From a virus, in the IMG/VR virus record IMGVR_UViG_3300028384_000368, positions 1-22,018 of that record: DNA of 22,018 bases. The stretch is one strand, 5' to 3'. A model generated the notes under the pieces. The model did no database searches, was not told the DNA's origin, and saw only the letters and a list, made by a program, of their open reading frames with translations. Positions 2,336 to 19,559 of this stretch are shown here, piece by piece. Positions within the stretch are counted from its first letter, which is position 1; each line of letters opens with the position of its first letter. A program made the translations under genes and the position numbers.

Positions 2336-3007
2336 ATGTGTGGTGTAATTGGTGTATATCTGACTGATGTTGTTGAGGAAGATATTAACCTAGTTGATCG
2401 CATTTTCCGGCAGACCATGATTCGTGGTAAGCATGCCACCGGTGTCACTTATGTGTCTCAAGATGGGTTGAAGACAATCAAAGAACCAGTTCCTGTCACC
2501 GAGTTCCTTAAGAACCATAACATTAAAGACTTCGTTTTTAACGGCGCACTGAAGTTGATCGGTCATATCCGATATTCAACCTCAGACCTTCGGTACAATC
2601 AACCGTTTCAAGGAGATGGTGTATCGATCGCCCATAACGGTGTTATCTCTCAGGATCCCGATATCTGGGAATATAAAACTAAGACGTTTAACGATTCAGA
2701 ATTGATACTTCGATGCATTGAGTCAGGGGATCATCCACTAGAAGTCTACAAAGACCGCAGTATGTCAGTCGTCTCGCTCGAAGAAGATCGACTACATGCA
2801 TTCCGAAATCACGAAAGACCATTGTGGCGAGCAGAACGTTGGAACGGATGCCTGTTTGCTTCTACTCAAGATATTTTTTCTCGTGCTGGGGTTTCCTTTG
2901 GAGTCTCTAAATGCGATCCAATGGTTCATTATAAGTATGATTTGTACAGCGGACTGATTGCTGACACGACATATTATGATCCAGAGTTGGAAGATTTACA
3001 ATGCTAA
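2336..3007 (+). CDS. class II glutamine amidotransferase (223 aa)
   Basis: An N-terminal nucleophile amidotransferase that would hydrolyse glutamine and hand on ammonia. MCGVIG places the catalytic Cys at position 2, to be exposed after Met removal. RGKHATG (30-36), GHIRYST (76-82) and HNG (100-102) match the glutamine site and oxyanion region seen in the GlmS and PurF glutaminase domains. Only the glutaminase domain is present; no synthase or phosphosugar-isomerase domain is fused. It is the first gene of a five-function overlapping operon with acyltransferase, transferase, oxygenase and kinase genes. The likely role is supplying an amine or amide group to a modified DNA base, inferred from this context. 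Confidence 0.88.
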   Translation: MCGVIGVYLTDVVEEDINLVDRIFRQTMIRGKHATGVTYVSQDGLKTIKEPVPVTEFLKNHNIKDFVFNGALKLIGHIRYSTSDLRYNQPFQGDGVSIAHNGVISQDPDIWEYKTKTFNDSELILRCIESGDHPLEVYKDRSMSVVSLEEDRLHAFRNHERPLWRAERWNGCLFASTQDIFSRAGVSFGVSKCDPMVHYKYDLYSGLIADTTYYDPELEDLQC

Positions 3008-3642
3008 ACCGATATACAAAAGAGCAAGTTGAGTCTCTCTTAGAATCTCAACCGGAGGGGCAGAACACTAAGTTCTTAAAGTCTGCACATAACCTTTGGT
3101 TTCGGTTTAAAAATTATGATAAACACCCTCCGTTCGTTCTAGAAGATAACGGTCTTCCTGTTGCTCTTGTTTTCATAACATTTAGTGCCCGAAGCAAGTA
3201 TGCTAACTTGTATGAGATCGTGACTCTTGAAGGCATGGAGGGGAACGGATATGCGTCTAAAGTTTATTGGGCGGTTATGAGTGAGGCTCACAGGCAGGGG
3301 ATGCAGAGACTGAAGATGTCTTGCACACCCAGTTCTGTTACTTGGCACAAACGCAACGGAACACTTTTTTGGGGCGTTGATCCTTCTGGTTCTCTCCGTT
3401 GTAATGTTCCCATTTTTCCCAACCTACATGAGCAACTAACGTTCCGAGAGTTGGCAGTAAAAGACCCTGATTCGGCATTACCTGACTCAAAGACAAGAGA
3501 TCAGTTGAAGTCAGACTCGCTTGAGTCTCATGGGTTTGGGGCAAAGAAAACGGCGAAGGTTGAGCAAGCGATTAATGATGTCGGTGACTATTGGTTACGA
3601 GACGCACTATTTAATGAAAACACACTGGAATCTTTCTTTTGA
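3001..3642 (+). CDS. GNAT-family acyltransferase (213 aa)
   Basis: Residues 45-120 look like a GNAT core: beta strands (PVALVFITFS), then EIVTLEGMEGNGYASKVYW, whose GNGYAS stretch corresponds to the acetyl-CoA pyrophosphate-binding loop (motif A, Q/RxxGxG/A). A helix and MSCTPSSVTWHKRNG follow, matching motif B. The C-terminal ~75 residues are unassigned. It would transfer an acyl group from a CoA donor to an amine. It overlaps the amidotransferase stop by 7 bases and its own stop overlaps the next TTG start, so it belongs to the base-modification operon. The substrate is unknown. Confidence 0.72.
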   Translation: MLNRYTKEQVESLLESQPEGQNTKFLKSAHNLWFRFKNYDKHPPFVLEDNGLPVALVFITFSARSKYANLYEIVTLEGMEGNGYASKVYWAVMSEAHRQGMQRLKMSCTPSSVTWHKRNGTLFWGVDPSGSLRCNVPIFPNLHEQLTFRELAVKDPDSALPDSKTRDQLKSDSLESHGFGAKKTAKVEQAINDVGDYWLRDALFNENTLESFF

Positions 3643-4634
3643 TTGACTACCGCGAAAACCGTAAGGAAGCGTTTGTTGATTGGTTCGGTAAGTCTCTAGA
3701 AATAGAAGACTGCGACTCTGCATTATTCATGACGAACTACTTCTTTGATCGGTTCGAATACAACACAGAGCAAAAACTTTGGTTGTCATGGATATATGGG
3801 ACAACGTACTACTGGCCAACTTCGTATGTGGTCTGGAACGAATTCCCTGATATGGAACTGGTTGGTGTAGACCGACTCACCGAGTGGAACAACGAGAACT
3901 ATAAGCGTCTCCGGTATCAGACTGACACTAAATGGAATAAGGGTCATCTTCCTTCGCAGTTTATCTCATACAAAGAGTTTGTCGGAGAACGCACGCAACG
4001 AGAGGCACTGACCGAGAACTTTGTGGGTGATCCTATAAAAGATTTCTACTCTCTTTGGGACACAGTAAATTCTTGGCATAAGTTCGGTCGATACTCTTCA
4101 TGGTTCTATATCCAGACGCTGAAACAATGCTGTGACATTGACGTCGACGTAGACAGTTTGTGGTTACATGACTACAGTGGTTCTCGTTCTCACCGGAATG
4201 GGCTATGTTATGCAGTCGGTAAGGAAGAGTGGATTGATACGAAACTAGACCAAACTCAGGTCGACTTCCTAGAGTCCGAAGGGCGAGAGTTACTTGCAGA
4301 AGTGAAACAACAATTCCCTAGAGCAAAGGGAAACGCAGACTATTTTGCTATGGAAACCGCGTTGTGTTCCTTCAAGAAGTTATTCCGGAAACGAGATGGT
4401 AGATATCTTGGATACTACCTTGACAGACAGGCAGAAGAAATCAAGAAAGTCGAAAAGGACAATTGGTGTGGTATTGACTGGCAACCAATGTGGGACGCTA
4501 GGCAAGAAAAAATACCAGTAGAGTACTTGACAAACTCGATTGATAAGAGTAGAATGGAGTTATTCTTGGATACTGGAGATTTCGATCCCCAGAATCAATC
4601 TATAGGTTTAGAGGCATTTTATGGAATTAATTGA
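3639..4634 (+). CDS. putative DNA-base hypermodification transferase (331 aa)
   Basis: I recognise this only by resemblance to proteins found beside hydroxymethyluracil DNA kinases in T4-like phages, described as alpha-glutamyl/putrescinyl thymine pyrophosphorylase-like (aGPT-PPlase). Those replace the pyrophosphate on an activated base with an amino acid or amine. Notable motifs are WLSWIYGTTYYWPTSY (48-63), YQTDTKW (93-99), FGRYSSWFYIQTL (149-161) and SRSHRNGLCYAVGKE (182-196). The protein is soluble, rich in Trp and Tyr, and helical. It starts at TTG 3639, inside the previous stop, with GGAA (3627-3630) eight bases upstream; no in-frame ATG exists nearby. The kinase lies two genes downstream. 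Substrate and catalytic residues are not established here. Confidence 0.6.
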   Translation: MIDYRENRKEAFVDWFGKSLEIEDCDSALFMTNYFFDRFEYNTEQKLWLSWIYGTTYYWPTSYVVWNEFPDMELVGVDRLTEWNNENYKRLRYQTDTKWNKGHLPSQFISYKEFVGERTQREALTENFVGDPIKDFYSLWDTVNSWHKFGRYSSWFYIQTLKQCCDIDVDVDSLWLHDYSGSRSHRNGLCYAVGKEEWIDTKLDQTQVDFLESEGRELLAEVKQQFPRAKGNADYFAMETALCSFKKLFRKRDGRYLGYYLDRQAEEIKKVEKDNWCGIDWQPMWDARQEKIPVEYLTNSIDKSRMELFLDTGDFDPQNQSIGLEAFYGIN

Positions 4635-5655
4635 AATTAATGGTCGCTCTTGGAAGAAGTACAAGGGTGACGAAGGGCAGGATGTTTACGTTGCCCAGTT
4701 TGTAGAACCACAAGAAAAGATCTTGGGTCAGTTCGCAAACGAAGAGTCATATGATATTTTAGTTGATGGGGATACCGATTTCTATCTTCCATCAGGTAAT
4801 GCGATGTTCAACGACACTCCCATTGAAGATGAGTCTAATGTCGCGTTCAAGTTTCGCAAAAACGTATTCAGTCAGGAAGAGCAAGACGGTGCGTTTGAGG
4901 GTTTATTCGATGCTGCGATCGAGTCTAACAACCGAGGTATGGCAGCAGGACCACGCGAGGAAACTCAGGGCAACCGTGACTGGGTGACTGGATTCCAGCA
5001 AGACGTTCTTGCTTGGTATGAGCAGAACCAACCACTTGATCTAGAAGGTGGGGATATGCTCGAGAATTTTGCTAAGAAACACGAGAAAGCAGAAGACGAG
5101 ATCCGTGGTGGTGTTTGGTTGCGCACCAAGGTCGAACCAGAGTTCGGCACATACAAAGAGTTTTTTCCGAAGATGATGGACAAACTTGCCAGCATGTCAA
5201 TTGAAGAAGCGTCAGATTATGCCAAAAATGTTAGGAAGGAGATGATTTCTTCGACTAACTACGCGACTGCTATCTGGTCAGGCATCGCTGGGTTCTATGG
5301 TCGATACCCTCGTATCCCATATGGTCGTGCGACAGCATATACCGACCATCATCGTGAGAAGTTTGAGAAGTGCTACCCGTTCGCGCGCAGACTCGATAAA
5401 GTATTCCGTGAGTTGCTACCAAACCGTTATCGCAATCAGAAAGAGTTTTCGGACCAACTTGATAATAAGTTCTTGATTGGCGAGGACACAACCTTTACCA
5501 CGATCACCGTCAACACAACTACCAGCGAACGTAATGCTAGAATGGCATGCCACCGAGACGCTGGGTCACTTAACGAAGGGTTTTCAAACCTGACCGTGAT
5601 CAGTGACGGTAAGAAAGACTGGAAGGGTGGGTATCTCTACTGCGTATGTCGCTAG
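4621..5655 (+). pseudogene. TET/JBP-type 2-oxoglutarate/Fe(II) dioxygenase, N-terminal fragment (344 aa)
   Basis: Residues 215-335 match phage members of the TET/JBP oxygenases that hydroxylate the methyl group of thymine or 5-methylcytosine in DNA. Key stretches are IPYGRATAYTDHHREKFEK (232-250), FTTITVNT (292-299), and the iron-binding H311-R-D313 followed by AGSLNEGFSNLTVISDG. Residues 1-210 form a family-typical N-terminal region. The reading frame then fails: after GGYLY it runs into TAG at 5653. The expected next ~50 residues, with the distal His of the HxD...H triad, are not found in any frame. The frame containing LLRMSLVFYFRE, the normal C-terminal continuation, is entered at about 5634. 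An internal deletion that also shifted frame explains this best; a sequencing or assembly error is the alternative. Confidence 0.8.
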
Positions 5656-5918
5656 TGTTCTACTTTCGTGAAGATATGATGAAACTTGGTTCTTGGGACT
5701 ATGAGCACCTTCGTCGCGCATTTGTTGATGACCGTCGCAAGAATGAAGATCACGAACTGTGGCGTCCATACTGGAACGGTGTCTCGCCGAGTATGTGGGA
5801 TACAGAAGAATGGTTTGAGTACTTGACTCAACACGGTGGAGAGGATATGCTTCGTCTCTATCATCCTAAAGCAGCTGCGATGAAAGAAGAAATATCACTT
5901 GAGGACTTTTTCGCATGA
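5646..5918 (+). pseudogene. C-terminal fragment of the TET/JBP oxygenase (90 aa)
   Basis: SLVFYFRED at the start matches the last beta strand of TET/JBP oxygenases. The following ~80 residues (FVDDRRKN, WRPYWNGVSPSMWDTEEW, and a tail ending SLEDFFA) look like the usual C-terminal extension of the phage family. It lies in the -1 frame relative to the upstream fragment. The codon for the 2-oxoglutarate-binding Arg (CGT 5643-5645) is just before this ATG, so a separately started peptide would lack it. A weak AAGGGTGGG lies about 14 bases upstream. The stop overlaps the kinase ATG, so the original operon coupling is preserved. On its own the fragment cannot be a working enzyme. Confidence 0.78.
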
Positions 5919-6472
5919 AAATCTTTTACATCATTGGTATGCCTGGAACTGGTAAGTCGACCATTATGAAAGAACTGATGAGTCGGTTCAATGACTGGAA
6001 ACAAGAACGAGTTGTTGAATTACTTGATACGCACGTGACAGGAAACTTGCGTGTTCTGGGAAAGTACCAAGATGATGGCGAAGGGACTTTCGACGGCACT
6101 GACAGATTGAGTATGGCAGTTCCACCCAGAGCAGTAGACTGGATCTCGACTCGACCTGATGAGTTCATAGTTGGAGAAGGCGACCGGCTTAACAACAAGA
6201 CATTTTTTCATTGCTGTGAACCTCACCTAACCATAGTCCACATAACTTCCTCTGATGAAGAACGTGAACGTCGATATGAGCAGAGAGGATCAAACCAGTC
6301 AGAGAAGTTCATCAAGACGACTCAAACCAAATGTCAGAACATCATTGAGCAATTTGGTGATAAGCAAACAGTCTTTGGCGAGGAGAAGGGTTGTGTTGTT
6401 GACTTCAAACACGAGAAGCCCGAAGACACCAAGTCTATTGTAGACTATATACTGAAAAGTTATAGACCATAA
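5915..6472 (+). CDS. P-loop kinase, 5-hydroxymethyluracil DNA kinase-like (185 aa)
   Basis: The Walker A motif is GMPGTGKST (8-16). Further motifs LGKY (48-51), DGTDRLSM (60-67) and GEGDRL (87-92), plus a C-terminal RGSNQSEKF...TKCQNI region, are those I associate with phage kinases that phosphorylate 5-hydroxymethyl-dU in DNA (HMUDK), the activating step of thymine hypermodification. It starts at ATG 5915 overlapping the oxygenase C-fragment stop (ATGA). It is the last gene of the operon and appears intact, as do the amidotransferase, GNAT and transferase genes, although the oxygenase is broken. If the oxygenase is truly dead, the kinase would need hydroxymethylated bases from another source. 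Confidence 0.8.
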   Translation: MKIFYIIGMPGTGKSTIMKELMSRFNDWKQERVVELLDTHVTGNLRVLGKYQDDGEGTFDGTDRLSMAVPPRAVDWISTRPDEFIVGEGDRLNNKTFFHCCEPHLTIVHITSSDEERERRYEQRGSNQSEKFIKTTQTKCQNIIEQFGDKQTVFGEEKGCVVDFKHEKPEDTKSIVDYILKSYRP

Positions 6473-6503
6473 CTCTTTATTCTAAATTAGTATCAGAAAG
6501 TTG

Positions 6504-6532
6504 TTGCCTAATTTGTTTTAATAACTTATAAT
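6504..6532 (+). promoter_or_regulatory. sigma70-like promoter with AAATTGA box
   Basis: TTGCCT (6504-6509) and TATAAT (6527-6532) are 17 bases apart. Seven bases later comes TAAATTGATGAGGA (6540-6553), identical in sequence and distance to the promoter at 7062-7090. It drives the HNH gene. Confidence 0.8.
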
Positions 6533-6561
6533 TCTTCTCTAAATTGATGAGGACTTTTGAT

Positions 6562-7023
6562 ATGAGAGAAGAACGCGTAATAAGTGGGATAAAATATAGA
6601 ACCCCTTACTATAAAGGAGAGATGCTGAAAAATTATCTGGTTTCTTCTTGTGGGAAAATCTATAGTCTACTGACAAGTAAGTTTCTGACGCCTACGGTTA
6701 GCGGCAACACAGCATACCCCAGAGTGGGAATACGGTTGAATGGTAAATCTAAGCATCCAAATGTACATCAGTTAGTGGCGTCTGCTTGGGTTAAAAAACC
6801 AATACCTGAAGGAATATCCAAAGAAATTTGGATCAAAACCCCAGCAGAAGTAAAATTCTTGATAGACAGAGATCTTTGGGAAATTGATCACATCAATACT
6901 ATTAAGGATGATTTTCGCGCTGAAAACCTTCGATGGGTTTCTAGAAGTAAAAATAAATCTGTTTACTATAATGAACAGAAACCTATTTTGGAATCTTCTA
7001 CACTTGAAGAGTTTTTAGCCTGA
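6562..7023 (+). CDS. NUMOD4-HNH homing endonuclease (153 aa)
   Basis: A free-standing homing endonuclease. Residues 25-76 (YLVSSCGKIYS ... HQLVASAW) match the NUMOD4-type segment common in T4-like phages. Residues 107-128 (WEIDHINTIKDDFRAENLRW) carry the HNH catalytic stretch, with D109, H110, N112 and N122 as the metal and nucleophile-activating positions. ATG 6562 is chosen because GAGG (6549-6552) sits 9 bases before it; an ATG at 6547 would overlap that site. It lies directly behind the base-modification operon with its own promoter. Composition is AT-rich relative to the operon, consistent with recent insertion. Confidence 0.88.
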   Translation: MREERVISGIKYRTPYYKGEMLKNYLVSSCGKIYSLLTSKFLTPTVSGNTAYPRVGIRLNGKSKHPNVHQLVASAWVKKPIPEGISKEIWIKTPAEVKFLIDRDLWEIDHINTIKDDFRAENLRWVSRSKNKSVYYNEQKPILESSTLEEFLA

Positions 7024-7061
7024 CCCTTCGAAGAAATGTGTAAAATTACCTAAATTTTCTG

Positions 7062-7090
7062 TTGCTTATTTTTACAACATACACTATAAT
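7062..7090 (+). promoter_or_regulatory. sigma70-like promoter with AAATTGA box
   Basis: TTGCTT (7062-7067) and TATAAT (7085-7090) are 17 bases apart, with TAAATTGATGAGGA beginning 7 bases after the -10 (7098-7111). It is nearly the same module as at 6504-6553 and drives the 64-aa gene and GIY-YIG gene. Confidence 0.82.
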
Positions 7091-7118
7091 GTATTTGTAA
7101 ATTGATGAGGAGTTAGTG

Positions 7119-7313
7119 ATGACTAAGCAAGAACTAAGAGTTGAACTTTTAAGAGACGTTGAAAGGTTTTTAGAAAACCGTAACAAGGTTACTGTCCTTA
7201 ATCCTAATAAGGCACCAGCTTCTTTGACCGCGTTTGTTAGGGTATCTCCAGGATCAAACGGGAACCGCGTAGATGGTTCCCGTCTTGGTTCTAAGGCAGG
7301 CCGGTTATCATGA
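7119..7313 (+). CDS. small protein of unknown function (64 aa)
   Basis: A short protein with a helical N-terminus (KQELRVELLRDVERFLENRN) followed by a basic, Ser/Gly-rich tail. No family is assigned; the segment NKVTVLNPNKAP resembles small uncharacterised proteins of other T4-like phages. ATG 7119 is preferred over the GTG directly before it because GAGGAG (7107-7112) then has ideal spacing. A 7-bp inverted repeat GGGAACC/GGTTCCC (7260-7281) lies near its 3' end. Its stop overlaps the ATG of the GIY-YIG gene, so the two are coupled. Confidence 0.65.
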   Translation: MTKQELRVELLRDVERFLENRNKVTVLNPNKAPASLTAFVRVSPGSNGNRVDGSRLGSKAGRLS

Positions 7314-7996
7314 AGAAGCCTAGCGGTGAAGTATTCTCTTCACTAGGCAAATACGTATACGGGTATAAGAACCCAGATGGGACTTGGGATTATTTCGGCA
7401 AAGGTGTAGATGATCGACTTTGGCATCACGTTACCGATAAAGGTCTAGACCCCGAAAACGCTTTTGTCTTCGCAAGAAACCTTGAAGTGTTTGATGAAAG
7501 AAAAGACGCTTCTCAGTTTTCAGTCGAATCAATACTCATCAACCTTCTTAACCCCAACCTTAACAAAGTATCTGGTCATAAAAAGGAATTATTTGAAATG
7601 GCAAAATTTAGTGATTATGTAAAAGACTACCAAGACGCGCAGTACGATAATTTTTCTCAGTTGCCTGAATGGTACATGGCGAATTACGACTCATTCTCTG
7701 GTCGGTTACGAGAAGTGAAGCTTGGCACCTCGAACACCTTTTTACACTCAAGTGTCAACAATGGTGTTTACCTTCAAGTATATGTCCCCGTAGTGGACTC
7801 AGAATTCGAAGCAACATTCGAAGTTGCTGGTGATCCTTCTAAAGATGATTCTGTCTTACAGAAGAAAAAAGGTCTTCAACAGTGGTTAAGTGAAGAAGGG
7901 TATGAGACAAGAGATGTCAATAACTCTAAGAAGGTGACTATAAAGGTTTCTTCTGTTTCCGAGATGTTGCAACTTTGGAATGACTTCTGGTCATGA
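7310..7996 (+). CDS. GIY-YIG family endonuclease (228 aa)
   Basis: The N-terminal ~90 residues match the GIY-YIG fold as seen in the LEM-3-like branch: YVYGYKN (15-21), WDYFGKG (26-32), R36, catalytic Glu in SVESILINLL (E73), and NLNKVSGH (83-90). Residues 91-228 are an unassigned C-terminal domain with beta-rich stretches (GVYLQVYVPVV, KKVTIKVSS), probably for target recognition. It overlaps the 64-aa gene by 4 bases and has no strong ribosome site of its own, so it depends on coupling. It is probably a homing endonuclease, adjacent to an HNH one, though a repair or restriction role cannot be excluded. Confidence 0.72.
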   Translation: MKKPSGEVFSSLGKYVYGYKNPDGTWDYFGKGVDDRLWHHVTDKGLDPENAFVFARNLEVFDERKDASQFSVESILINLLNPNLNKVSGHKKELFEMAKFSDYVKDYQDAQYDNFSQLPEWYMANYDSFSGRLREVKLGTSNTFLHSSVNNGVYLQVYVPVVDSEFEATFEVAGDPSKDDSVLQKKKGLQQWLSEEGYETRDVNNSKKVTIKVSSVSEMLQLWNDFWS

Positions 7997-8040
7997 TAGA
8001 TGGTGAAAAGAATGCCTAAGTAGTTCTTATCTCGCTTGCA

Positions 8041-8205
8041 ATGAGATCTGCCGGTATTGACTATCGTATGTATGATTTGGTGTTTGGTCTTGCTGGCATT
8101 ATTCTGTGGTTGTGGGTGTCCATTATTTGGAAGGATCGTGCATTGATCATGTTGAATGCCGTATCGGGGTTTATGTTAGCAACAACTATTTTGAGAGAGT
8201 GGTGA
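8041..8205 (+). CDS. small membrane protein (54 aa)
   Basis: This short frame encodes two probable membrane helices: LVFGLAGIILWLWVSIIW (13-30) and ALIMLNAVSGFMLATTIL (34-51), with a basic link WKDR and a short REW end. Its TGA overlaps the ATG of the next gene, giving the coupling seen elsewhere here. No clear ribosome site precedes ATG 8041, and ATG 8068 is an alternative start. No family is recognised. Confidence 0.55.
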   Translation: MRSAGIDYRMYDLVFGLAGIILWLWVSIIWKDRALIMLNAVSGFMLATTILREW

Positions 8206-8471
8206 TGAAAGTTAATTTGGAAATGGATTGTTCCCCTTGGTTGAACGAGGACGGAACTATCGCAGTTGGAATCTGGCTTGGTAATGATTGCGAACCTTCT
8301 TTGGAAGAGATTTTCTTGTTAAAAGAGATGGTAGACAATACTTTAGAGTCCATGAAAGTAGGCAATAAAATTGCAGAACATCACTTCGATGATGTTGAGA
8401 AACTATTGATTTCACTCAATGATTTGTATGAGTATGCCAAGACTAGGGCTGAGGATTTAGGTTATGTCTAA
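8205..8471 (+). CDS. acidic protein of unknown function (88 aa)
   Basis: A soluble acidic protein with a beta N-terminal part (DGTIAVGIWLG) and two amphipathic helices (EEIFLLKEMVDNTLESM and VEKLLISLNDLYEYAKTRAE). The frame could extend upstream to 8106, but ATG 8205 is chosen: a GAGAG precedes it, and the upstream stretch is the small membrane gene in another frame. It overlaps the following DUF3310-like gene by 8 bases. No function can be assigned. Confidence 0.7.
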   Translation: MKVNLEMDCSPWLNEDGTIAVGIWLGNDCEPSLEEIFLLKEMVDNTLESMKVGNKIAEHHFDDVEKLLISLNDLYEYAKTRAEDLGYV

Positions 8472-8742
8472 GAAGATAGATTACAAGTTCAACGAAGATA
8501 AATTGATCGCAGAATTTAAGTCTTATGTAGACGCTACATATAATCAACACTACGCCAAAGAGAAGTTTCAGGCGACTGAGTTTATTATTGATGGGGGGCA
8601 TGGTACAGGATTCTGTATCGGTAATGTTTTAAAGTACGCGCAACGATACGGTAAGAAGGGGACTCGTGACGATGCGCGCAAAGATCTAATGAAGGTTTTG
8701 CATTATGCGCTTATTCAATTACACGTTCACGATAGCGATTAG
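8464..8742 (+). CDS. DUF3310-like (SaV-like) protein (92 aa)
   Basis: The central part, GFCIGNVLKYAQRYGKKGTRDDARKDL, strongly resembles the DUF3310/SaV-like phage family, whose core is GNxxKYxxRxxxKG...DLxKxxxY. These are small helical proteins widespread in phages, often near nucleotide metabolism genes; their function is not settled. The overlap with the lipoprotein gene downstream (38 bases) is unusually long for this window. Confidence 0.75.
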   Translation: MSKKIDYKFNEDKLIAEFKSYVDATYNQHYAKEKFQATEFIIDGGHGTGFCIGNVLKYAQRYGKKGTRDDARKDLMKVLHYALIQLHVHDSD

Positions 8743-9085
8743 TCTATTCATCACCGGATGCGCATCATCTGGTGTCACCAATGCTTACCGTTACGGTACG
8801 GATGATTATAAGTTCCTAGAAAAGGAATACGAGAACTTGCATCCACAAGTTCATTTTGTTTTACTCAAAAACGAAGCCGAGTATAATTCAGCCAGACGAC
8901 AGAATCTAGGCGTACAATGGGACACAGTGAGTGCATTCACTCTCTGGATTCCTGAAACCGGCGAGTGCACCGTGTACATAAAGGACCCACAGTGGCAGTG
9001 GGAACCTGAGTTGATTGGACACGAAGTTGCACACTGCATATGGGGGAGATACCATCGAGGCAAAGAAGGCCTCAAACCTTATTAG
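8705..9085 (+). CDS. HExxH lipoprotein, putative metallopeptidase (126 aa)
   Basis: The N-terminus MRLFNYTFTIAISLFITGC ends in a lipobox (FITG-C19), so it should be a lipid-anchored envelope protein. Near the C-terminus GHEVAHCIWGRYH carries H106-E107-x-x-H110 plus H117, a plausible three-His/Glu zinc site. It could cleave a cell-envelope protein or peptide; only the motif supports this. The start lies 38 bases inside the upstream gene. The stop TAG ends on base 9085, which is also the first base of tRNA-Asp, so message and tRNA abut without any spacer. Confidence 0.78.
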   Translation: MRLFNYTFTIAISLFITGCASSGVTNAYRYGTDDYKFLEKEYENLHPQVHFVLLKNEAEYNSARRQNLGVQWDTVSAFTLWIPETGECTVYIKDPQWQWEPELIGHEVAHCIWGRYHRGKEGLKPY

Positions 9086-9161
9086 GAGCGGTAGTTCAGT
9101 TGGTTAGAATACCTGCCTGTCACGCAGGGGGTCGCGGGTTCGAGTCCCGTCCGCTCCGCCA
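9085..9161 (+). tRNA. tRNA-Asp (GTC)
   Basis: The acceptor GGAGCGG pairs with CCGCTCC. The anticodon arm CCTGC-CTGTCAC-GCAGG gives anticodon GTC, and the T-arm is CGCGG-GTTCGAGT-CCCG. The discriminator is G and CCA is encoded (9159-9161). It begins on the last base of the preceding lipoprotein stop codon. Confidence 0.96.
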
Positions 9162-9178
9162 ACATTTGAGAGAAAATT

Positions 9179-9391
9179 ATGAGATTTCTTGTTGTTGCAG
9201 TATTGACATTAGTAGTGGGTTGTAGTATAATTGTTGCCAATGAAGACGAAAGAATATGTCTTGATTGGAAATCAAGGGTGATAGTTCAAGAAAGATGTAT
9301 CCCTTATTATGGCACGATAATGTGTGCCGACGAAGAAAAAGTTCAAACGTGGTGTGTTCTCTATGAAGAGACACCAAAAGAAGAGGAATGA
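9179..9391 (+). CDS. small Cys-rich lipoprotein (70 aa)
   Basis: MRFLVVAVLTLVVGC is a lipoprotein signal with a VVGC box (Cys15). The mature part of about 55 residues has four further Cys (27, 40, 49, 59), suitable for two disulphides in the periplasm, and an acidic tail. A GAGAG lies before the ATG. No family is recognised. A full-consensus sigma70 promoter lies inside the signal-peptide codons (9203-9231). The gene is followed directly by a 65-aa gene. Confidence 0.68.
   Translation: MRFLVVAVLTLVVGCSIIVANEDERICLDWKSRVIVQERCIPYYGTIMCADEEKVQTWCVLYEETPKEEE
9203..9231 (+). promoter_or_regulatory. perfect-consensus sigma70 promoter inside a gene
   Basis: TTGACA (9203-9208) and TATAAT (9226-9231) are exactly 17 bases apart, within the lipoprotein coding sequence. 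It could express the 65-aa gene and tRNA-Tyr and tRNA-Pro downstream. Unlike the other promoters here it lacks the AAATTGA box. Confidence 0.6.
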
Positions 9392-9392
9392 T

Positions 9393-9590
9393 ATGCGAGG
9401 AAAGCATGTAGTCAAGCGCCGACGCGAAGGCGCACTCGATCGTCTTCAGGCGTCAACGTTCTTTGAGAAGAACGGCCGCACTGAACAACAGTGGCAGAAA
9501 CGTAAGGACAAGGAGATCGAGAGACTTGAGATCGCACTTGGTCTGAAGCAAGGTGCTAAGAAGAATCGTGAGGAAATAACCCTAGACTAA
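9393..9590 (+). CDS. small basic protein of unknown function (65 aa)
   Basis: A highly charged, probably helical protein (KHVVKRRREGALDRLQAS, RTEQQWQKRKDKEIERLE). Similar short proteins, ALDRLQ followed by a Lys/Glu helix, are common in phages but have no assigned role. ATG 9393 is preferred over upstream in-frame starts because AGAGG (9382-9386) lies 6 bases before it and the upstream starts lie within the lipoprotein gene. tRNA-Tyr starts 6 bases after its stop. Confidence 0.7.
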   Translation: MRGKHVVKRRREGALDRLQASTFFEKNGRTEQQWQKRKDKEIERLEIALGLKQGAKKNREEITLD

Positions 9591-9596
9591 AAGTCG

Positions 9597-9680
9597 GGGG
9601 AGGTTCCAGAGCGGCCAAATGGATCAGACTGTAAATCTGACGCGAGAGCTTCGGTGGTTCGAATCCACCCCTCCCCACCA
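9597..9680 (+). tRNA. tRNA-Tyr (GTA)
   Basis: The acceptor GGGGAGG pairs with CCTCCCC. The anticodon arm CAGA-CTGTAAA-TCTG gives anticodon GTA. A long class II variable arm (ACGCGAGAGCTTC) and the T-arm GGTGG-TTCGAAT-CCACC are present, the discriminator is A and CCA is encoded. Confidence 0.96.
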
Positions 9681-9782
9681 ATTAGTCCCGAGATGACTCT
9701 AAACTCGTGCTGGTCGTTACGCCCGTCACCTGAGTATGTGGAAAACTGCTCGCTTACACACAACACACAAAAGGAGACAATT

Positions 9783-9995
9783 ATGTCTAATACAAGTCCA
9801 TACGAACTTCGGTTCCAAATTTTCGAAACAGCAAGAGCCGTCTTAACCGATGAATACTGGGCTCAGGTAAATCGCCGTGAAGTATTGATTGAGACCGGCG
9901 GAGTTGATACTATTCCAGAATTCCCGACATATCCTACTATGCAGGATGTATTGGAACGAGCGAAAAGCATCAACGAGTTTGTTTCAAATAGTTAA
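9783..9995 (+). CDS. conserved phage protein of unknown function (70 aa)
   Basis: MSNTSPYELRFQIFETARAV is typical of a short helical protein seen repeatedly in T4-like marine phages, without known function. The start is fixed by AAGGAGA at 9771-9777, even though the frame stays open back into the tRNA. The ~100 bases between tRNA-Tyr and this gene show no promoter or gene. Its TAA ends directly against the first base of tRNA-Pro. Confidence 0.75.
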   Translation: MSNTSPYELRFQIFETARAVLTDEYWAQVNRREVLIETGGVDTIPEFPTYPTMQDVLERAKSINEFVSNS

Positions 9996-10072
9996 CGGAG
10001 ATTGGCGCAGTCTGGTAGCGCACCGCATTTGGGATGCGGGGGTCGTAGGTTCGAATCCTACATCTCCGACCA
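9996..10072 (+). tRNA. tRNA-Pro (TGG)
   Basis: The acceptor CGGAGAT pairs with ATCTCCG. The anticodon arm CCGCA-TTTGGGA-TGCGG gives anticodon TGG, and the T-arm is GTAGG-TTCGAAT-CCTAC. The discriminator is A and CCA is encoded. It starts immediately after the stop codon of the 70-aa gene. Confidence 0.96.
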
Positions 10073-10085
10073 ATAAGGAAATGTT

Positions 10086-10247
10086 ATGATACACGAGTGG
10101 AAGATTTTTTACAAAGGTATTCAAGTAGGTCTAACCTACTCAATAACAGAGTATGGTGCACGAGAAAGATGGTACAATAACCAGAGTACTAGTGCGTCTA
10201 AATATTCAGGTCTGAACTTTTCAGACATCTTAGCAAAGAAATCGTAA
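10086..10247 (+). CDS. small protein of unknown function (53 aa)
   Basis: A short frame beginning MIHEWKIFYKGIQVGLTYS, preceded by AAGGA at a good distance. Its TAA overlaps the ATG of the PsiE-like gene (TAATG), which supports it as a real coupled gene. The sequence looks beta-rich, then helical; no family is recognised. Confidence 0.6.
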   Translation: MIHEWKIFYKGIQVGLTYSITEYGARERWYNNQSTSASKYSGLNFSDILAKKS

Positions 10248-10615
10248 TGAATAAATTATTTGACTTGTTTGAAGAGTTGATACTCAGCGTCATTGTCCTT
10301 GCTACAATCTTCGCTGTCGGTGAAGAAGTTTGGAAGTTGGTCGAAGCGAGAACTGTCGCGTTGACTGATCTACTTCTTTTATTCATCTATGCAGAGGTTG
10401 TAGGCATGGTCGCGATCTTCTATCGCAGTCATCGCATTCCGGCAACACTGCCTATTATTATCGCAACGACTGCATTGAGCCGAATGATCATTCTGCAGAG
10501 CAAAGAACTTGACCCTACGATTATTCTCTTCGAAGCGGGCGGTATTGTTTTACTAAGTATAGCTGCATTCATAATGACATACCGAAATCGGTATGTGGGA
10601 GAAGATGAAATATAG
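10247..10615 (+). CDS. psiE: PsiE-like inner-membrane protein (122 aa)
   Basis: This small four-helix membrane protein matches the phosphate-starvation-inducible PsiE family. Marks are LTDLLLLFIYAEVVGMVAIFY (39-59), a short loop with RIPATLP, then IIIATTALSRMIIL (70-83) and a last helix around 93-112. E. coli PsiE has a similar but slightly longer layout and lacks a known biochemical activity; its expression follows phosphate starvation and CRP. Here it could adjust host phosphate-limited physiology, but no Pho-box-like repeats were noticed upstream. A near-perfect inverted repeat CATACCG...CGGTATG (10578-10595) lies in its last codons. Confidence 0.75.
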   Translation: MNKLFDLFEELILSVIVLATIFAVGEEVWKLVEARTVALTDLLLLFIYAEVVGMVAIFYRSHRIPATLPIIIATTALSRMIILQSKELDPTIILFEAGGIVLLSIAAFIMTYRNRYVGEDEI

Positions 10616-10665
10616 GGTCTGATTCCCCTATCCAAATAACTGAATCAGTGGTGCCCAGCAGAGGC

Positions 10666-10692
10666 GGGGGAGGAAACTCCCCCTTATCTTAT
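10666..10692 (+). terminator. stem-loop, probable terminator or mRNA end
   Basis: GGGGGAG-GAAA-CTCCCCC (10666-10683) is a 7-bp GC-rich hairpin with a GNRA loop, followed by TTATCTTATT. The T-run is interrupted, so termination may be partial. It follows the psiE-like gene and precedes the 56-aa gene. Confidence 0.55.
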
Positions 10693-10704
10693 TATGGAGA
10701 CAAT

Positions 10705-10875
10705 ATGAGTGTTACCCGAGAGTTAGAAAGAATGCAACAGAGCATTCGAGAAATGGATCAGTGCCTAGAAGCACTGAAAAATGCAACCGATAGACTTACT
10801 CCACCGGAGTACCCTAACGAGTTGCGTGAACCGGAAGAAGTGTCAAAGAGGTTCTATCGAGAACCTGAGTTATAA
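10705..10875 (+). CDS. small helical protein of unknown function (56 aa)
   Basis: TGGAGA precedes ATG 10705; the frame is open further upstream, but only across the terminator hairpin. The product is a predicted coiled-coil-like helix (RELERMQQSIREMDQCLEALKN) with a Pro/Glu-rich tail. It ends 5 bases before tRNA-Ser. No function is assigned. Confidence 0.65.
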   Translation: MSVTRELERMQQSIREMDQCLEALKNATDRLTPPEYPNELREPEEVSKRFYREPEL

Positions 10876-10880
10876 TATTA

Positions 10881-10968
10881 GGTGGGCTGGCTGAGTGGTC
10901 GAAAGCGGCGGTCTTGAAAACCGTTGAACCGAGAGGTTCCGTAGGTTCGAATCCTACGCCCACCGCCA
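10881..10968 (+). tRNA. tRNA-Ser (TGA)
   Basis: The acceptor GGTGGGC pairs with GCCCACC. The anticodon arm GCGGT-CTTGAAA-ACCGT gives anticodon TGA. A class II variable arm (TGAACCGAGAGGTTCC) and the T-arm GTAGG-TTCGAAT-CCTAC are present, the discriminator is G and CCA is encoded. Confidence 0.96.
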
Positions 10969-10997
10969 TTTATTTTTAAAAAGTGTAATATTAACGC

Positions 10998-11026
10998 TTG
11001 ACAGGTAACTGTCACTGTAGTATACT
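10998..11026 (+). promoter_or_regulatory. sigma70-like promoter with overlapping palindrome
   Basis: TTGACA (10998-11003) and TATACT (11021-11026) are 17 bases apart. GAAATTTGTGAG follows 7 bases after the -10, resembling the AAATTGA box of other promoters. TGACAG-GTAA-CTGTCA (10999-11014) is a perfect inverted repeat covering the -35, a possible operator. Confidence 0.75.
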
Positions 11027-11056
11027 TGTTTTTGAAATTTGTGAGAGAGGTTTCAA

Positions 11057-11629
11057 GTGATCAAGATTTTTTATGTCCACGGTTGGGGTTCTGAGTTTGA
11101 CCCGACTAGCGACAAGGTTCTTGCTTTGGCTGAGTTGGGTGAAGTTTACGGTATTACTGTGAATTGGGCTGACGGACATCGACGCGTATTTGACCAACTT
11201 ACTGAAGAGATCGGTGCGTATCAACCCGACCTCCTTGTTGGTACTTCTATGGGTGGGTATGGTGTTAATCATCTCGGCACTGAACTCGGCATTCCCTTCG
11301 TAGCAATCAACCCTGCCATCCGACCCTACGAGACTCTCATGAGTCGAGTCGGTGTTGGCACTGACTACTATGGTCGTGAGTATGAATTGACTTGGCAGAC
11401 CGTGAGTGCATTCCCTGAGTTTGCTACTGGTGGTTGCGGTCTCGTTCTCCTTGCGATGGACGACGACGTGATTGACGCACGAGAAACTATAAATAGTTAT
11501 TCAAACCATTATGACTGTCGCATCTTCGAAACAGGTGGCCACCGATTCGAACGTCTGCGAGAGGCATTACCATTGATAACACAATTTTATAGCAGTGCGG
11601 AAATCATCTATGGACTTGATGAAGTTTAA
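11057..11629 (+). CDS. YqiA/UPF0227-like alpha/beta-hydrolase esterase (190 aa)
   Basis: This is a compact alpha/beta-hydrolase. IFYVHGWGS (4-12) is the oxyanion-hole loop, and GTSMGG (62-67) is the nucleophile elbow with Ser64. AMDDDV (133-138) supplies the catalytic Asp, and GGHRF (160-164) supplies His162. The order and size fit the YqiA (UPF0227) family of small esterases acting on acyl-CoA or carboxyl esters; the substrate is unknown. There is no signal peptide, so it is cytoplasmic. It has its own sigma70-type promoter. A late promoter for the next gene is embedded near its 3' end (11488-11495). Confidence 0.85.
   Translation: MIKIFYVHGWGSEFDPTSDKVLALAELGEVYGITVNWADGHRRVFDQLTEEIGAYQPDLLVGTSMGGYGVNHLGTELGIPFVAINPAIRPYETLMSRVGVGTDYYGREYELTWQTVSAFPEFATGGCGLVLLAMDDDVIDARETINSYSNHYDCRIFETGGHRFERLREALPLITQFYSSAEIIYGLDEV
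11488..11495 (+). promoter_or_regulatory. T4-type late promoter (TATAAATA)
   Basis: This exact match is embedded in the esterase coding sequence as codons ACT-ATA-AAT-AGT. It lies about 115 bases before the next gene start and would express it late. Confidence 0.72.
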
Positions 11630-12307: not shown

Positions 12308-13726
12308 ATGAAGAAACTACTAACTGTAGCTGTGTCTACTGCACTTCTAAGTGCGTGTTCTGGTGGAGGTTCTGACACCCCACCGCCCGTCGTGGCAGAT
12401 CCTGTCACATCCACGCCCGTAACGACACCCGTCGACCCCGCAGTCGAGGCACGTGACAATCTACTCACGTTACTTGACTCTACGTCACCGACAGGTACTT
12501 ACGAGGCATACATCCTACCCGCAAGTGATGACTTCGACAACATCCCGCAGGATCCCAGCAATGAGATCACCGCAGAGAAAGTCGCACTAGGCAAGTTGAT
12601 TTATCACGAAACTGGTATCACTGAAGGTGATATCGGACCTAGTGAGAGCACGTTCTCATGTGCGTCATGCCACAATGCACAGAACGGATTCAAGTCTGGT
12701 ATCCGTCAGGGTATCGGTGAAGGCGGTATCGGTTTCGATCACCGCATGGTGATGGAGGGTATCAATCCCGAAGACATCGATGTGCAACCTGTTGCATCAC
12801 CCACTGTACTCAACACGGCATTCCAAGAAGTGATGTTGTGGAATGGTCAGTTAGGTAATGTGATTGCGGGTAATGTCAATGTTGGTATTGATCCCGATCG
12901 TCACTTCACAGAAGGTACTCCGAAAGAAGCAAACCTACGCAACTTTGCTGGTCTAGAGACACAAGCAGTTGCGGGTCTAGGTGTGCATCGTCAGGGTGAC
13001 ACAGATGATTCTATCCTGCGCACTAACGAAACTTATCGTGAGATGTTTGAATCTGCGTACGGTGTCGCAGAACCCGACGATATGTTAGAAGCGACTGCAC
13101 TGGCGATCGCCGCATACGAACGCACGATTCTTGCAAACCAAGCACCTTTCCAAGCATACTTGAAAGGCGACGAAACTGCGATGACTGAATCTGAAGTCGC
13201 TGGTGCAGAAGTGTTCTTTGGTAAGGGTAACTGTTATGCGTGTCATAACGGACCTGCGTTGTCATCTCCCGTTGGTGCGATGGCAGACGAAGTGTTCATG
13301 ACTGTCGGGTTCCATGATCTTGACATCTGGGAAGACACCATCGGTGAAGTTAATGAATCGACAAAGTTAGGTCGTGGTGGTTTCACAGGAGATGACCTTG
13401 ATCAATTTAAGTTCAAAGTTCCTCCGCTTTATAATCTTATAGATACAGAAGTATTTGGACACGGCGCTTCGTTTACATCCGTAGAAGAAGTGGTTCGATA
13501 TAAGGTGACTGCAATTCCGCAACACCCACAAGTAGAGATCAGTGATCTTGATTATAGGTTTACGCCAGTGGACTTAACAGAAGAAGAAATCGCTAATTTG
13601 ATCGAATTCCTTGAGAAGAGTTTGCACGATTCTGACTTGATGCGGTATGTGCCTGAGTCTCTACCAAGTGGTAACTGCCCTATCAATAATGACGAAGAAT
13701 CCCGTCAAGAGTTGGGTTGCGACTAA
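12308..13726 (+). CDS. di-haem cytochrome c peroxidase lipoprotein (472 aa)
   Basis: It would reduce periplasmic hydrogen peroxide to water with electrons from cytochrome c or a similar donor. The lipobox LLSAC (Cys17) and a Pro/Thr-rich linker (20-50) anchor it to the envelope. Two haem-c sites are present, CASCH (118-122) and CYACH (309-313), in the order and spacing of CcpA/MauG proteins. The family pattern SPTVLNTAFQEVMLWNG (164-180) and KVPPLYNL followed by H385 also fits. At 472 residues it is longer than typical CcpA (about 330) because of the linker and C-terminal extension. Haem attachment needs the host cytochrome c maturation system. It has its own promoter and ribosome site (GAGAGGA). 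This is an unusual phage gene. Confidence 0.92.
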   Translation: MKKLLTVAVSTALLSACSGGGSDTPPPVVADPVTSTPVTTPVDPAVEARDNLLTLLDSTSPTGTYEAYILPASDDFDNIPQDPSNEITAEKVALGKLIYHETGITEGDIGPSESTFSCASCHNAQNGFKSGIRQGIGEGGIGFDHRMVMEGINPEDIDVQPVASPTVLNTAFQEVMLWNGQLGNVIAGNVNVGIDPDRHFTEGTPKEANLRNFAGLETQAVAGLGVHRQGDTDDSILRTNETYREMFESAYGVAEPDDMLEATALAIAAYERTILANQAPFQAYLKGDETAMTESEVAGAEVFFGKGNCYACHNGPALSSPVGAMADEVFMTVGFHDLDIWEDTIGEVNESTKLGRGGFTGDDLDQFKFKVPPLYNLIDTEVFGHGASFTSVEEVVRYKVTAIPQHPQVEISDLDYRFTPVDLTEEEIANLIEFLEKSLHDSDLMRYVPESLPSGNCPINNDEESRQELGCD

Positions 13727-17886: not shown

Positions 17887-19286
17887 TTAAGAATTTCAGT
17901 CAGTACCTCGTTGAAGAAGAACGCGAGGTCTACTTTACATTCGGACGTATGAATCCACCTACCATCGGACACGGTAAGGTGATGGATACGTTAGCTCAAA
18001 AGTCAGGCAAATCCGACTATAAAGTCTTCGTGTCACAATCCCAAGACGCGAAAAAGAATCCCCTGTCGTATACCGACAAAATCAAACACACACGTAAGAT
18101 GTTTCCAAAACATGCACGGAACGTCATGGTTGATAAGACTGTGAAAACAGCGATCAACGCAATGGTCACACTGTACAATCAAGGTTACAAGTCAGTTACT
18201 ATGGTTGTCGGTGCAGACCGCATTACAGAATTCGAAGTCCTGTTGAACAAGTACAACGGGAAGAAAGCAAGACATGGTTTTTACAATTTTAAGAATATTA
18301 AAGTAGTATCTGCAGGTGAGAGAGATCCAGACGCTAACGGCGTAGAGGGTATGTCTGCCTCCAAACAACGAGAGAACGCACAGAAAAATGATTTCGTTTC
18401 GTTCTCTCAGGGCGTTCCTAAGTCCATGTCAAACCCCGACACACGTAAATTATTCAATGACGTACGTAAGGGTATGGGACTAAAGGAAGCCAACGAATTC
18501 CGTAATCATCTAGAACTAGAAACAGTATCAGAAACCCGTGAACAATATGTTTCGGGTGAACTGTTTGAAGTTGGTGATACGGTAGTTATTAAAGAATCTG
18601 AAGAGATCGCTACCGTATCCGTTCTAGGCGCAAACTACGTTATCGTAGAAACATCTGACGGTAAGAAAATGCGAAAGTGGTTAGATGCCGTCGAACTTGT
18701 TGAGAAACAAGATCCAGACATCAAAGACCGTAAGGGTACGCAACCAGCAAAATATCACGCCGGACTCAAGAAGTCCACCAAAGTCAAACGCGACGCTCAC
18801 TTCAAGAAGCATGGAAAGAAGGCAGACGACGATTCTTCTGCATACAAACCAGCGCCAGGCGATAAGACTGCCAAGACTAAACCATCCAAGTACACCAAGT
18901 CGTTCAAAGACATGTACGACGAAGATTGTTGGGATGGGTACAAGCAAGTTGGCATGAAGAAGAAAGGTGGTAAGATGGTTCCAGACTGTGTCCCAGAAGA
19001 ACACGGTGCGGGCGATGAAGGTACTGATAAGTTACGCAAACGTTACTTCAAAGACACTCCAGGACAAGATGACATCTTCGAGAACTGGGTGACTGATTTG
19101 ATGTCTCGTGTCGGTTCAAAAACTATAAATAAAGACAAATATCGCAAAGTAGCGCAACACATTAAACGTGAGATGGGTAAAGGTAAATACACGTCCCCAG
19201 AGTTTGCCGCTGCTGATACTATCCGTAGGTTTAACCTTGACATCGACGCCAAGGTACTTGCAGGAATGATTAGGAAATTAGCATGA
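17883..19286 (+). CDS. nucleotidyltransferase fusion with capsid signal (467 aa)
   Basis: Residues 15-200 look like a cytidylyltransferase/NMNAT-type domain: YFTFGRMNPPTIGHGKVM (17-34) with the HxGH-like TIGH motif, VVGADR (108-113), and MSASKQRENA (157-166) in the place of the ISSTxxR motif. A linker with a beta domain (VGDTVVIKESEEIATVSVLG) follows. Next comes a DUF5872-like segment (KGTQPAKYHAGLKKSTKVKR ... APGDKTAKTKPSKYTK), then CWDGYKQVGMKKKGGKMVP, a motif repeated in many T4-like phage proteins. The N-terminus MIKNFSQYLVEE carries the capsid pattern. The start is GTG 17883, overlapping the upstream stop. It may transfer a nucleotide in the capsid or in the newly infected cell; the substrate is unknown. 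Confidence 0.8.
   Translation: MIKNFSQYLVEEEREVYFTFGRMNPPTIGHGKVMDTLAQKSGKSDYKVFVSQSQDAKKNPLSYTDKIKHTRKMFPKHARNVMVDKTVKTAINAMVTLYNQGYKSVTMVVGADRITEFEVLLNKYNGKKARHGFYNFKNIKVVSAGERDPDANGVEGMSASKQRENAQKNDFVSFSQGVPKSMSNPDTRKLFNDVRKGMGLKEANEFRNHLELETVSETREQYVSGELFEVGDTVVIKESEEIATVSVLGANYVIVETSDGKKMRKWLDAVELVEKQDPDIKDRKGTQPAKYHAGLKKSTKVKRDAHFKKHGKKADDDSSAYKPAPGDKTAKTKPSKYTKSFKDMYDEDCWDGYKQVGMKKKGGKMVPDCVPEEHGAGDEGTDKLRKRYFKDTPGQDDIFENWVTDLMSRVGSKTINKDKYRKVAQHIKREMGKGKYTSPEFAAADTIRRFNLDIDAKVLAGMIRKLA
19124..19131 (+). promoter_or_regulatory. T4-type late promoter (TATAAATA)
   Basis: Embedded in the nucleotidyltransferase gene as ACT-ATA-AAT-AAA, about 150 bases before the next gene start. Confidence 0.7.
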
Positions 19287-19555
19287 TCTCTTTTAAAAAG
19301 TATTTGACTGAGAAACGTTATTCGACGTATGACAGCATTGATCTAGACGAAGGACCAGACGGTATCGCTGCAAAGGCGAAGAAGTCTGGTATCTCTGCAG
19401 ATACTTTGCGTAAGGTATACAATCGTGGTGTTGCCGCTTGGAAAACTGGACACAGGCCAGGCACTACACCGCAACAATGGGGAATGGCGCGAGTTAACGC
19501 GTTCATTGTAAAGAAAAAGAAAGGCAATTTAAACCACGATAAGGACTTGGCGTAA
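19283..19555 (+). CDS. DUF5824-like capsid-signal protein (90 aa)
   Basis: MISFKKYLTE matches the capsid-targeting pattern. The rest (KSGISADTLRKVYNRGVAAW, TGHRPGTTPQQWGMARVNAF) is a helical domain found in several phage virion-associated proteins and sometimes in bacteria (DUF5824 by memory). Its function is unknown. It overlaps the preceding gene by 4 bases and follows a late promoter. Confidence 0.75.
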   Translation: MISFKKYLTEKRYSTYDSIDLDEGPDGIAAKAKKSGISADTLRKVYNRGVAAWKTGHRPGTTPQQWGMARVNAFIVKKKKGNLNHDKDLA

Positions 19556-19559
19556 ACAA

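Follow-up and report, generated by a model that had tools for sequence, protein, structure and literature searches.

A conserved five-gene cassette for putative thymine hypermodification, with a broken TET/JBP oxygenase and polymerase-like C-terminal tails, on a fragment of a T4-like phage

The IMG/VR virus record IMGVR_UViG_3300028384_000368 is a 22 kb fragment (22,018 nucleotides, analyzed as a whole and here called the window) of a T4-like virus of bacteria, the nearest sequenced relative of which is the complete Phage C48C1 (OQ984149.1, 156 kb; classified under Kyanoviridae), with 87.5 % identity across 58 % of the window. Directly 3' of a tRNA-Asn and a tRNA-Leu gene lies a cassette of five genes, all on the + strand (2336–6472), that is probably devoted to the hypermodification of a DNA base. 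The encoded proteins are a stand-alone class II (Ntn) glutamine amidotransferase domain (GATase; 2336–3007, 223 aa), a GNAT-fold acyltransferase (3001–3642, 213 aa), an aGPT-PPlase2-like amino acid:DNA transferase (ADDT; 3639–4634, 331 aa, TTG start), a TET/JBP oxygenase divided into an N-terminal (4621–5655, 344 aa) and a C-terminal fragment (5646–5918, 90 aa, starting with MSLVFYF), and a P-loop kinase (Ploopntkinase3, PF18751; 5915–6472, 185 aa, Walker A motif GMPGTGKST). An earlier note on this DNA had described all five genes as joined by overlaps of 4–14 bases. This is correct for the first three junctions, that is, GATase/GNAT (7 bases), GNAT/ADDT (4), and ADDT/TET (14), but not for the oxygenase and the kinase, between which the separate 90-aa open reading frame (ORF) is located, the longer oxygenase ORF having its stop at 5655.

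The GATase matches PF13522 (GATase_6; 28.4 bits, cut-off 27) and phrog_4736 (2.2e-20); its active-site Cys2 is intact, and C2, R79, N101-G102, and D120 are near-invariant across 66 sequences including that of the window. The GNAT was assigned by PF00583 (Acetyltransf_1; 25.6 bits, cut-off 20.7) and by its AlphaFold2 model (predicted local distance difference test score, pLDDT, 94.6), for which 338 PDB matches were obtained at E≤0.001, the best ones being N-acetyltransferases and the neighbors including SpeG (E about 1e-6 to 3e-5); the acyl-CoA loop GxGxA is present as G81-x-G83-x-A85. The ADDT gives 81.5 bits with PF18724 (cut-off 26.2, 9.7e-23) and is 27 % identical to the ADDT of phage phiMAM1 over 342 aa (127 bits), which disposes of the possibility that the transferase stems from an unrelated family. 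As regards the oxygenase, the family is given by the intact relatives, both by profile (62.6 bits with PF12851 for the C48C1 protein) and by fold, with CcTet, NgTet1, CMD1, and TET2 as nearest PDB structures. Both TET and ADDT thus belong to base-modification families, as had been proposed. In the window, ADDT, GNAT, and kinase retain their near-invariant residues. Less apt was the label of a hydroxymethyluracil (HMU)-DNA kinase, which can be ruled out in its classical sense at the family level. The protein belongs to PF18751 (61.5 bits, cut-off 27), a family that occurs only in TET- and ADDT-containing records among those tested and that was not found in the classical ADDT phages (phiMAM1, Cygsa01, Vibrio 1.244.A, phiW-14, M6, and Vi01); where examined, these carry kinase parts of PF18748, PF18747, and PF18723. 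None of these three 5-hydroxymethyldeoxyuridine (5-hmdU) DNA kinase families is among the 25 of 31 families listed for the window, and BLAST revealed no similarity beyond chance to the HMUDK of 1.244.A. The place of the kinase in a pathway is drawn from its gene context.

Two scans of IMG/VR yielded 22 TET and 80 ADDT loci, from which 26 contigs remained once duplicates had been dropped and ADDT was required to have no less than 5.5 kb of left and 2.5 kb of right flank. Within the fetched stretch, TET, GATase, ADDT, and kinase occur together in every one of these 26 contigs and the window-type GNAT in 17. The exact order GATase-GNAT-ADDT-TET-kinase was counted in 21 contigs, and some contigs have TET first. 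The five-gene block is therefore real and not a chance arrangement, and the earlier note was right in treating the five functions as one cassette. The combination is not unique, as the cassette is widespread in metagenomic phages and a TET-like protein, an aGPT-Pplase2, and a kinase have already been named together in Rhodococcus phage Tonitrus (PMC11955845). Several variants have the GNAT replaced by a protein of ~291 aa, with weak, sub-threshold matches to Amidoligase_2, together with another GNAT. A ~435-aa protein of variant cassettes, taken by eye for a GIY-YIG nuclease, had to be abandoned as such, since Pfam returned only sub-threshold matches to other families. Full-length TET was not found in bacterial genomes, where all nine matches were to short stretches of 2-oxoglutarate oxygenases.

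The oxygenase of the window itself is not intact. Its N-terminal fragment scores 29 bits with PF12851, below the cut-off of 34.9, and as both ORFs match phrog_24024 (433 positions), 4621–5655 covering positions 6–308 and 5646–5918 positions 349–427, they represent two halves of one gene from which some 40 codons are missing. At the nucleotide level, the window and C48C1 align collinearly up to and beyond a single 121-bp gap at 5636/5637 (+ strand), a frame-shifting deletion that was not found in any other copy examined. An intron or an inserted gene can be dismissed as the cause of the break, given that bases are missing and nothing was inserted. In full-length relatives, TET is one ORF of about 430–490 aa that mostly overlaps the next gene, and 80 of the 84 matches in the fetched loci are 409–488 aa long, the four shorter ones beginning at or near the start of short contigs. 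The lost stretch reads VTPEVR..IIHGNTP..DLLR in relatives (also GDLLL..IIHGNTP..LLR) and aligns with the distal H..R of TET2, which we take to be the distal iron ligand and the 2-oxoglutarate-binding arginine; the region around HRD aligns with TET2 as well. While the HxD iron ligands are kept (HRD, residues 311–313 of the reference row, with H311 and D313 invariant), the corresponding histidine (H365) and arginine (R382), invariant in an alignment of 38 intact relatives, both fall within the deletion, and neither fragment can provide them. Hence, the pathway of oxidation, phosphorylation, displacement, and tailoring that had been read from this locus is still the best reading of the cassette, but it cannot run here as assembled, because the oxygenase is devoid of its distal His and Arg, a defect that the earlier note had missed. 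With step one dead in the assembled sequence, this contig is not expected to initiate modification.

A sequencing or assembly artefact, which would leave the phage behind the window with an intact TET, is a serious contender, albeit one we hold to be somewhat less probable than a genuine deletion. The absence of the deletion from every relative would fit such an error, as would the other cassette genes, which are open and conserved. Against it speak the clean junction, at which just 2–3 bp are shared by eye, too few for a k-mer assembler to make the connection in the usual case, and the fact that both TET halves are still open reading frames.

As to the target base, the substrate in the known ADDT pathway is 5-hydroxymethyluracil (5hmU), which a thymidylate-synthase-type hydroxymethylase produces at the nucleotide level. 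Neither this enzyme (PF00303) nor a C5-cytosine methyltransferase (PF00145) was found in 15 related records, most of them fragments, that include the complete C48C1 genome as well as records of 154 and 162 kb; control genomes gave positives in these searches and in those with the TET and ADDT profiles. The six classical ADDT phages show the reverse picture, with PF00303 in 6/6 and TET in 0/6, whereas TET and ADDT are both present in all six viral contigs re-searched among the 15 records. The annotated DNA methyltransferase of C48C1 is of the D12 type, that is, an N6-adenine enzyme. With both families missing from the relatives, hydroxylation of thymine in DNA by TET is the simplest reading and the most likely one.

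An oxidation of 5-methylcytosine (5mC) instead, supplied by the host or by an unrecognized phage methyltransferase and followed by the action of kinase and ADDT on 5-hydroxymethylcytosine (5hmC), strikes us as unlikely. Phage TETs of proven activity reportedly use 5mC as their substrate (Burke et al. 2021), and 5mC dioxygenases make up most of the nearest folds. However, PF00145 is absent from the 15 records, ADDT has otherwise been described in 5hmU pathways, and the positions of N1387 and H1904, the base-reading residues of TET2, are occupied in this family by S/D and R, respectively, in alignments read by eye.

A further trait of the cassette is found at the C-termini. TET, ADDT, and GNAT share the terminal motif (S/T/G)L(E/D)xF(F/L/M/Y), seen in the window as ..ISLEDFFA, ..GLEAFYGIN, and ..NTLESFF, respectively. 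Among unique proteins, the strict pattern is present in 59 of 60 TETs, 52 of 64 ADDTs, and 27 of 36 GNATs, most of the others having near-forms, as opposed to 29 of 699 other ORFs of the same loci; several of these 29 are DNA polymerases by size and others glycosyltransferases behind TET. A 154 kb record (G001) carries the tail in 6 of its 196 ORFs, namely those for the polymerase, ADDT, GNAT, TET, and two small proteins (Fisher p 1.6e-4 for enrichment in the cassette), and in C48C1 the carriers are the polymerase, Dam (..STLDAFFG), and TET. The polymerases themselves end in ..ATLEDFFG (C48C1) and SLEDFFG (G001), while the polymerase gene belonging to the window is not on the 22 kb fragment. 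In T4, similar tails of gp43 (the polymerase), gp55, and gp33 bind the gp45 sliding clamp and are interchangeable (PMC2988020; PMC7892883), and T4 alpha-glucosyltransferase co-purifies with gp45 according to a statement in PMC13216743 that cites Sommer 2004. By analogy, the (S/T/G)LExFF-type tail is presumed to be a clamp-docking motif. Beyond T4 alpha-glucosyltransferase, a limited literature search retrieved no title or abstract that ties hypermodification to clamp binding.

The resemblance extends to classical phages with quite different tails. When all ORFs of a phage were ranked by comparison of their last 13 residues with the tail of its own polymerase, ADDT came first of 213 in phiMAM1, second of 208 in Vi01, first of 213 in 1.244.A, and second of 229 in phiW-14; HMUD2 ranked fourth, third, and fifth in phiMAM1, Vi01, and 1.244.A and seventh of 241 in Cygsa01, and the PF18723 kinase part was among the top four in Vi01, phiMAM1, 1.244.A, and Cygsa01. 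The tail varies by lineage (VNLLSMMGK, KARKLW, MDFF, LGAFF, or LEDFF), and most enzyme tails score highest against the polymerase from their own lineage, the exceptions being HMUD2 of Cygsa01 and ADDT of G001, which score higher against the tail of another phage. Permutation per genome gave 0/20000 for three phages and 0.0003–0.014 for the others, values that are somewhat flattering because several tails had been seen before the test was chosen. The enzyme sets are also partly non-independent, as HMUDK_hel was recognized by its tail and the ADDT and HMUD2 tails had been seen beforehand. The ADDT of Cygsa01 and the TET of Caulobacter phage Cr30 (NC_025422.1) were not properly ranked, the ORF caller having taken wrong overlapping frames.

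These tails also bear on the role of the accessory enzymes. That GATase and GNAT might act on small molecules or peptides, in an amidoligase-type metabolism loosely linked to the cassette, appears improbable, even though 9 of the 26 contigs are without the window-type GNAT, several have the weak Amidoligase_2 protein beside the GATase, and the GATase is devoid of a clamp-type tail. The GATase is after all present in 26/26 contigs, and the tail of the window-type GNAT is of the kind also seen in TET, ADDT, and the DNA polymerase, an indication that this enzyme acts at DNA. The GATase has a near-invariant C-terminus of its own, (E)DLQ in 52 of 58 unique relatives, which may either serve in docking or reflect the ribosome-binding site for the gene that overlaps it.

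Equally improbable in our view is that the tails do not dock to the clamp but in general arise from the ribosome-binding sites of genes that overlap, or are some generic signal: several do reach into the start of the following gene, a GAG-type codon can form part of a Shine-Dalgarno sequence, and EDLQ of the GATase is a possible case, yet the polymerase and Dam tails of C48C1 lie 15–25 bp from the next gene and tails resemble that of the own polymerase even in lineages with very dissimilar sequences (RKLW, VNLLSMMGK, or GLGAFF). Moreover, all six Leu and both Phe codons are in use and synonymous choice varies freely, so that it is the peptide that is conserved. For TET, ADDT, and GNAT, an origin as a Shine-Dalgarno by-product was thus rejected, given this variation and the presence of the tail in non-overlapping genes.

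Taken together, we consider it probable that the cassette hypermodifies a pyrimidine of phage DNA after its replication, thymine being the most likely target; the substrate, the order of steps, the end product, and clamp binding are inferred. TET would hydroxylate the 5-methyl group of thymine in DNA to 5-hydroxymethyluracil, as JBP does for base J, and the PF18751 kinase would phosphorylate the resulting hydroxymethyl group. Then, as predicted from its family, ADDT would swap the (pyro)phosphate for an amino acid, the new amine of which is probably acylated by the GNAT, with the GATase conceivably supplying ammonia or, alternatively, handling a glutamyl or amide group. Through their C-terminal tails, TET, ADDT, and GNAT would probably be tethered to the phage sliding clamp and act behind the fork. 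A broader proposal, which we judge to be evenly balanced between right and wrong, is that thymidine hypermodification in T4-like phages is run by clamp-docked enzymes (an oxygenase or a 5-hmdU kinase, ADDT, and even an acyltransferase) whose tails co-vary with that of the phage's own DNA polymerase, and that one branch uses TET on thymine in DNA in place of a dUMP hydroxymethylase, with TET as a hub for exchangeable amino-acid and sugar cassettes.

Several points weigh against this explanation. Kinase and GATase are without a clamp-type tail, and so is the ADDT of Cr30, a phage that has TET and ADDT along with a strong thymidylate synthase match. The missing C5-methyltransferase is not special to the cassette, since 13 records with other TETs (P12024L-type), chosen as candidate positive controls for a TET beside such an enzyme, are also without PF00145; in addition, the host could supply 5mC, as could a methyltransferase outside PF00145, and most of the 15 records negative for PF00145 and PF00303 are fragments. 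Finally, we know of no chemistry established for any cassette member, and PF18751 is, to our knowledge, not a family shown to act on 5hmU-DNA.

The oxygenase remains while its neighbors change. Alignable blocks between the window and C48C1 comprise 75–1473, 2195–2329, 4594–5925, and everything from 8029 on; as they skip the GATase-GNAT-ADDT genes as well as the kinase and the HNH gene behind it, C48C1 is without these at that place, and neither ADDT nor PF18751 was found anywhere in its genome. Its TET is 92 % identical to that of the window over the aligned 339 aa and has as neighbors a UDP-galactopyranose mutase (PF03275, 5.6e-52), a 344-aa protein that could be assigned to no family, and an HNH gene. 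TET, the 344-aa protein, and the mutase lie in this order at 18038–20070 of C48C1, and the mutase suggests a decoration with galactofuranose. Behind TET, other loci carry a group-1 glycosyltransferase (L022) or a TAGT (1e-16, L024). Close behind TET and glycosyltransferase in L022, a sub-threshold match to GmrSD_N, a type IV restriction family, was noted (6338–7708). In Cr30, less than 2 kb separates TET from ADDT, and behind them lies a weak TAGT-like protein (whole stretch 5995–11155), the end of which (SDLSKLF) resembles that of the Cr30 polymerase (ADLSSLFD).

The swapped cassette is flanked on the left by an HNH homing endonuclease gene (1529–2146, by profile matches) and, as predicted by ARAGORN, by tRNA-Asn(gtt) (2141–2222) and tRNA-Leu(tag) (2227–2311), all on the + strand; C48C1 also has a tRNA-Leu just upstream of its TET gene. 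On the right follows an HNH endonuclease with NUMOD4/HNH_3 domains (6544–7023, + strand), the C-terminus of which, STLEEFLA, is of the type found in the DNA polymerase; homing endonucleases may also use the clamp. Further away, the window encodes a peroxiredoxin (449–1042; PF08534, 2.1e-28) that is kept in C48C1 and close relatives, and a predicted lipoprotein of 472 aa with two CxxCH motifs (CASCH and CYACH; 12308–13726) that resembles a di-haem cytochrome c peroxidase, which is unusual in a phage; at this place C48C1 has a gene of similar length (CDS0082).

If the proposal is true, thymidine hypermodification can begin on finished DNA by means of a base-J-like oxygenase, without modified nucleotides, and one oxygenase serves both amino-acid and sugar decorations. 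Modification enzymes, those of classical ViI-type phages included, would furthermore travel with the replication clamp, which would provide a simple way to test why modification is confined to some thymines and how protection can keep up with replication.

The general kind of cassette is already known, and TET-made hydroxymethyl pyrimidines are said to have been predicted as starting points (Iyer 2013). In the route of the ViI/M6/phiW-14 type, a dUMP hydroxymethylase, a 5-hmdU DNA kinase, and ADDT reportedly act in turn (Lee et al. 2018, 2022), with acetyltransferases reported as tailoring enzymes (Lee et al. 2022). Shared with this route are the ADDT homologue (PF18724), the logic of kinase then ADDT, and acetyltransferase tailoring; in its T4-like members, ADDT and kinase tails likewise resemble that of the own polymerase, which was not seen in M6. 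In contrast, the system described here has TET with no thymidylate-synthase-type hydroxymethylase in the related records, a PF18751 kinase in place of PF18748/18747/18723, and a stand-alone class II GATase. With the phage TET/C5-methyltransferase systems that make 5hmC (Burke et al. 2021), it shares a TET/JBP enzyme clustered with tailoring enzymes and, in L024, a TAGT-type glycosyltransferase beside a related TET, but no C5-methyltransferase was found in the 15 related records, and ADDT and kinase replace, or exchange with, the glycosyltransferases. The cluster of phage Tonitrus, named in a genome announcement as one for thymidine hypermodification, combines a tet-like protein, aGPT-Pplase2, and a 5-hmU DNA kinase with a ParB-like gene and a hypothetical protein, GATase and GNAT not being named (PMC11955845). 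T4 alpha-glucosyltransferase is, as proposed here, a base-modifying enzyme associated with the sliding clamp, with which it co-purifies, but it transfers glucosyl to 5hmC, and its binding is described in the relevant statement as in vitro only; the gp45 interaction is also not the main cause of the dominance of alpha-glucosylation in T4 (PMC13216743). We believe the shared tails to be the foremost new finding. Also new, we believe, is that TET and hydroxymethylase exclude each other among ADDT-carrying phages, apart from the partial exception of Cr30, that the kinase comes from a different family, and that the cassette is swapped while TET stays constant. Base J, finally, is synthesized by JBP1/JBP2 and a glucosyltransferase and offers the parallel of thymine hydroxylation in duplex DNA by a TET/JBP enzyme, as proposed here, followed by decoration. 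While base J is kinetoplastid and bears glucose, the phage cassette would transfer an amino acid and probably acylate it, and C48C1, in which TET is combined with a sugar-nucleotide mutase and ADDT is missing, is possibly the nearer counterpart of the kinetoplastid system.

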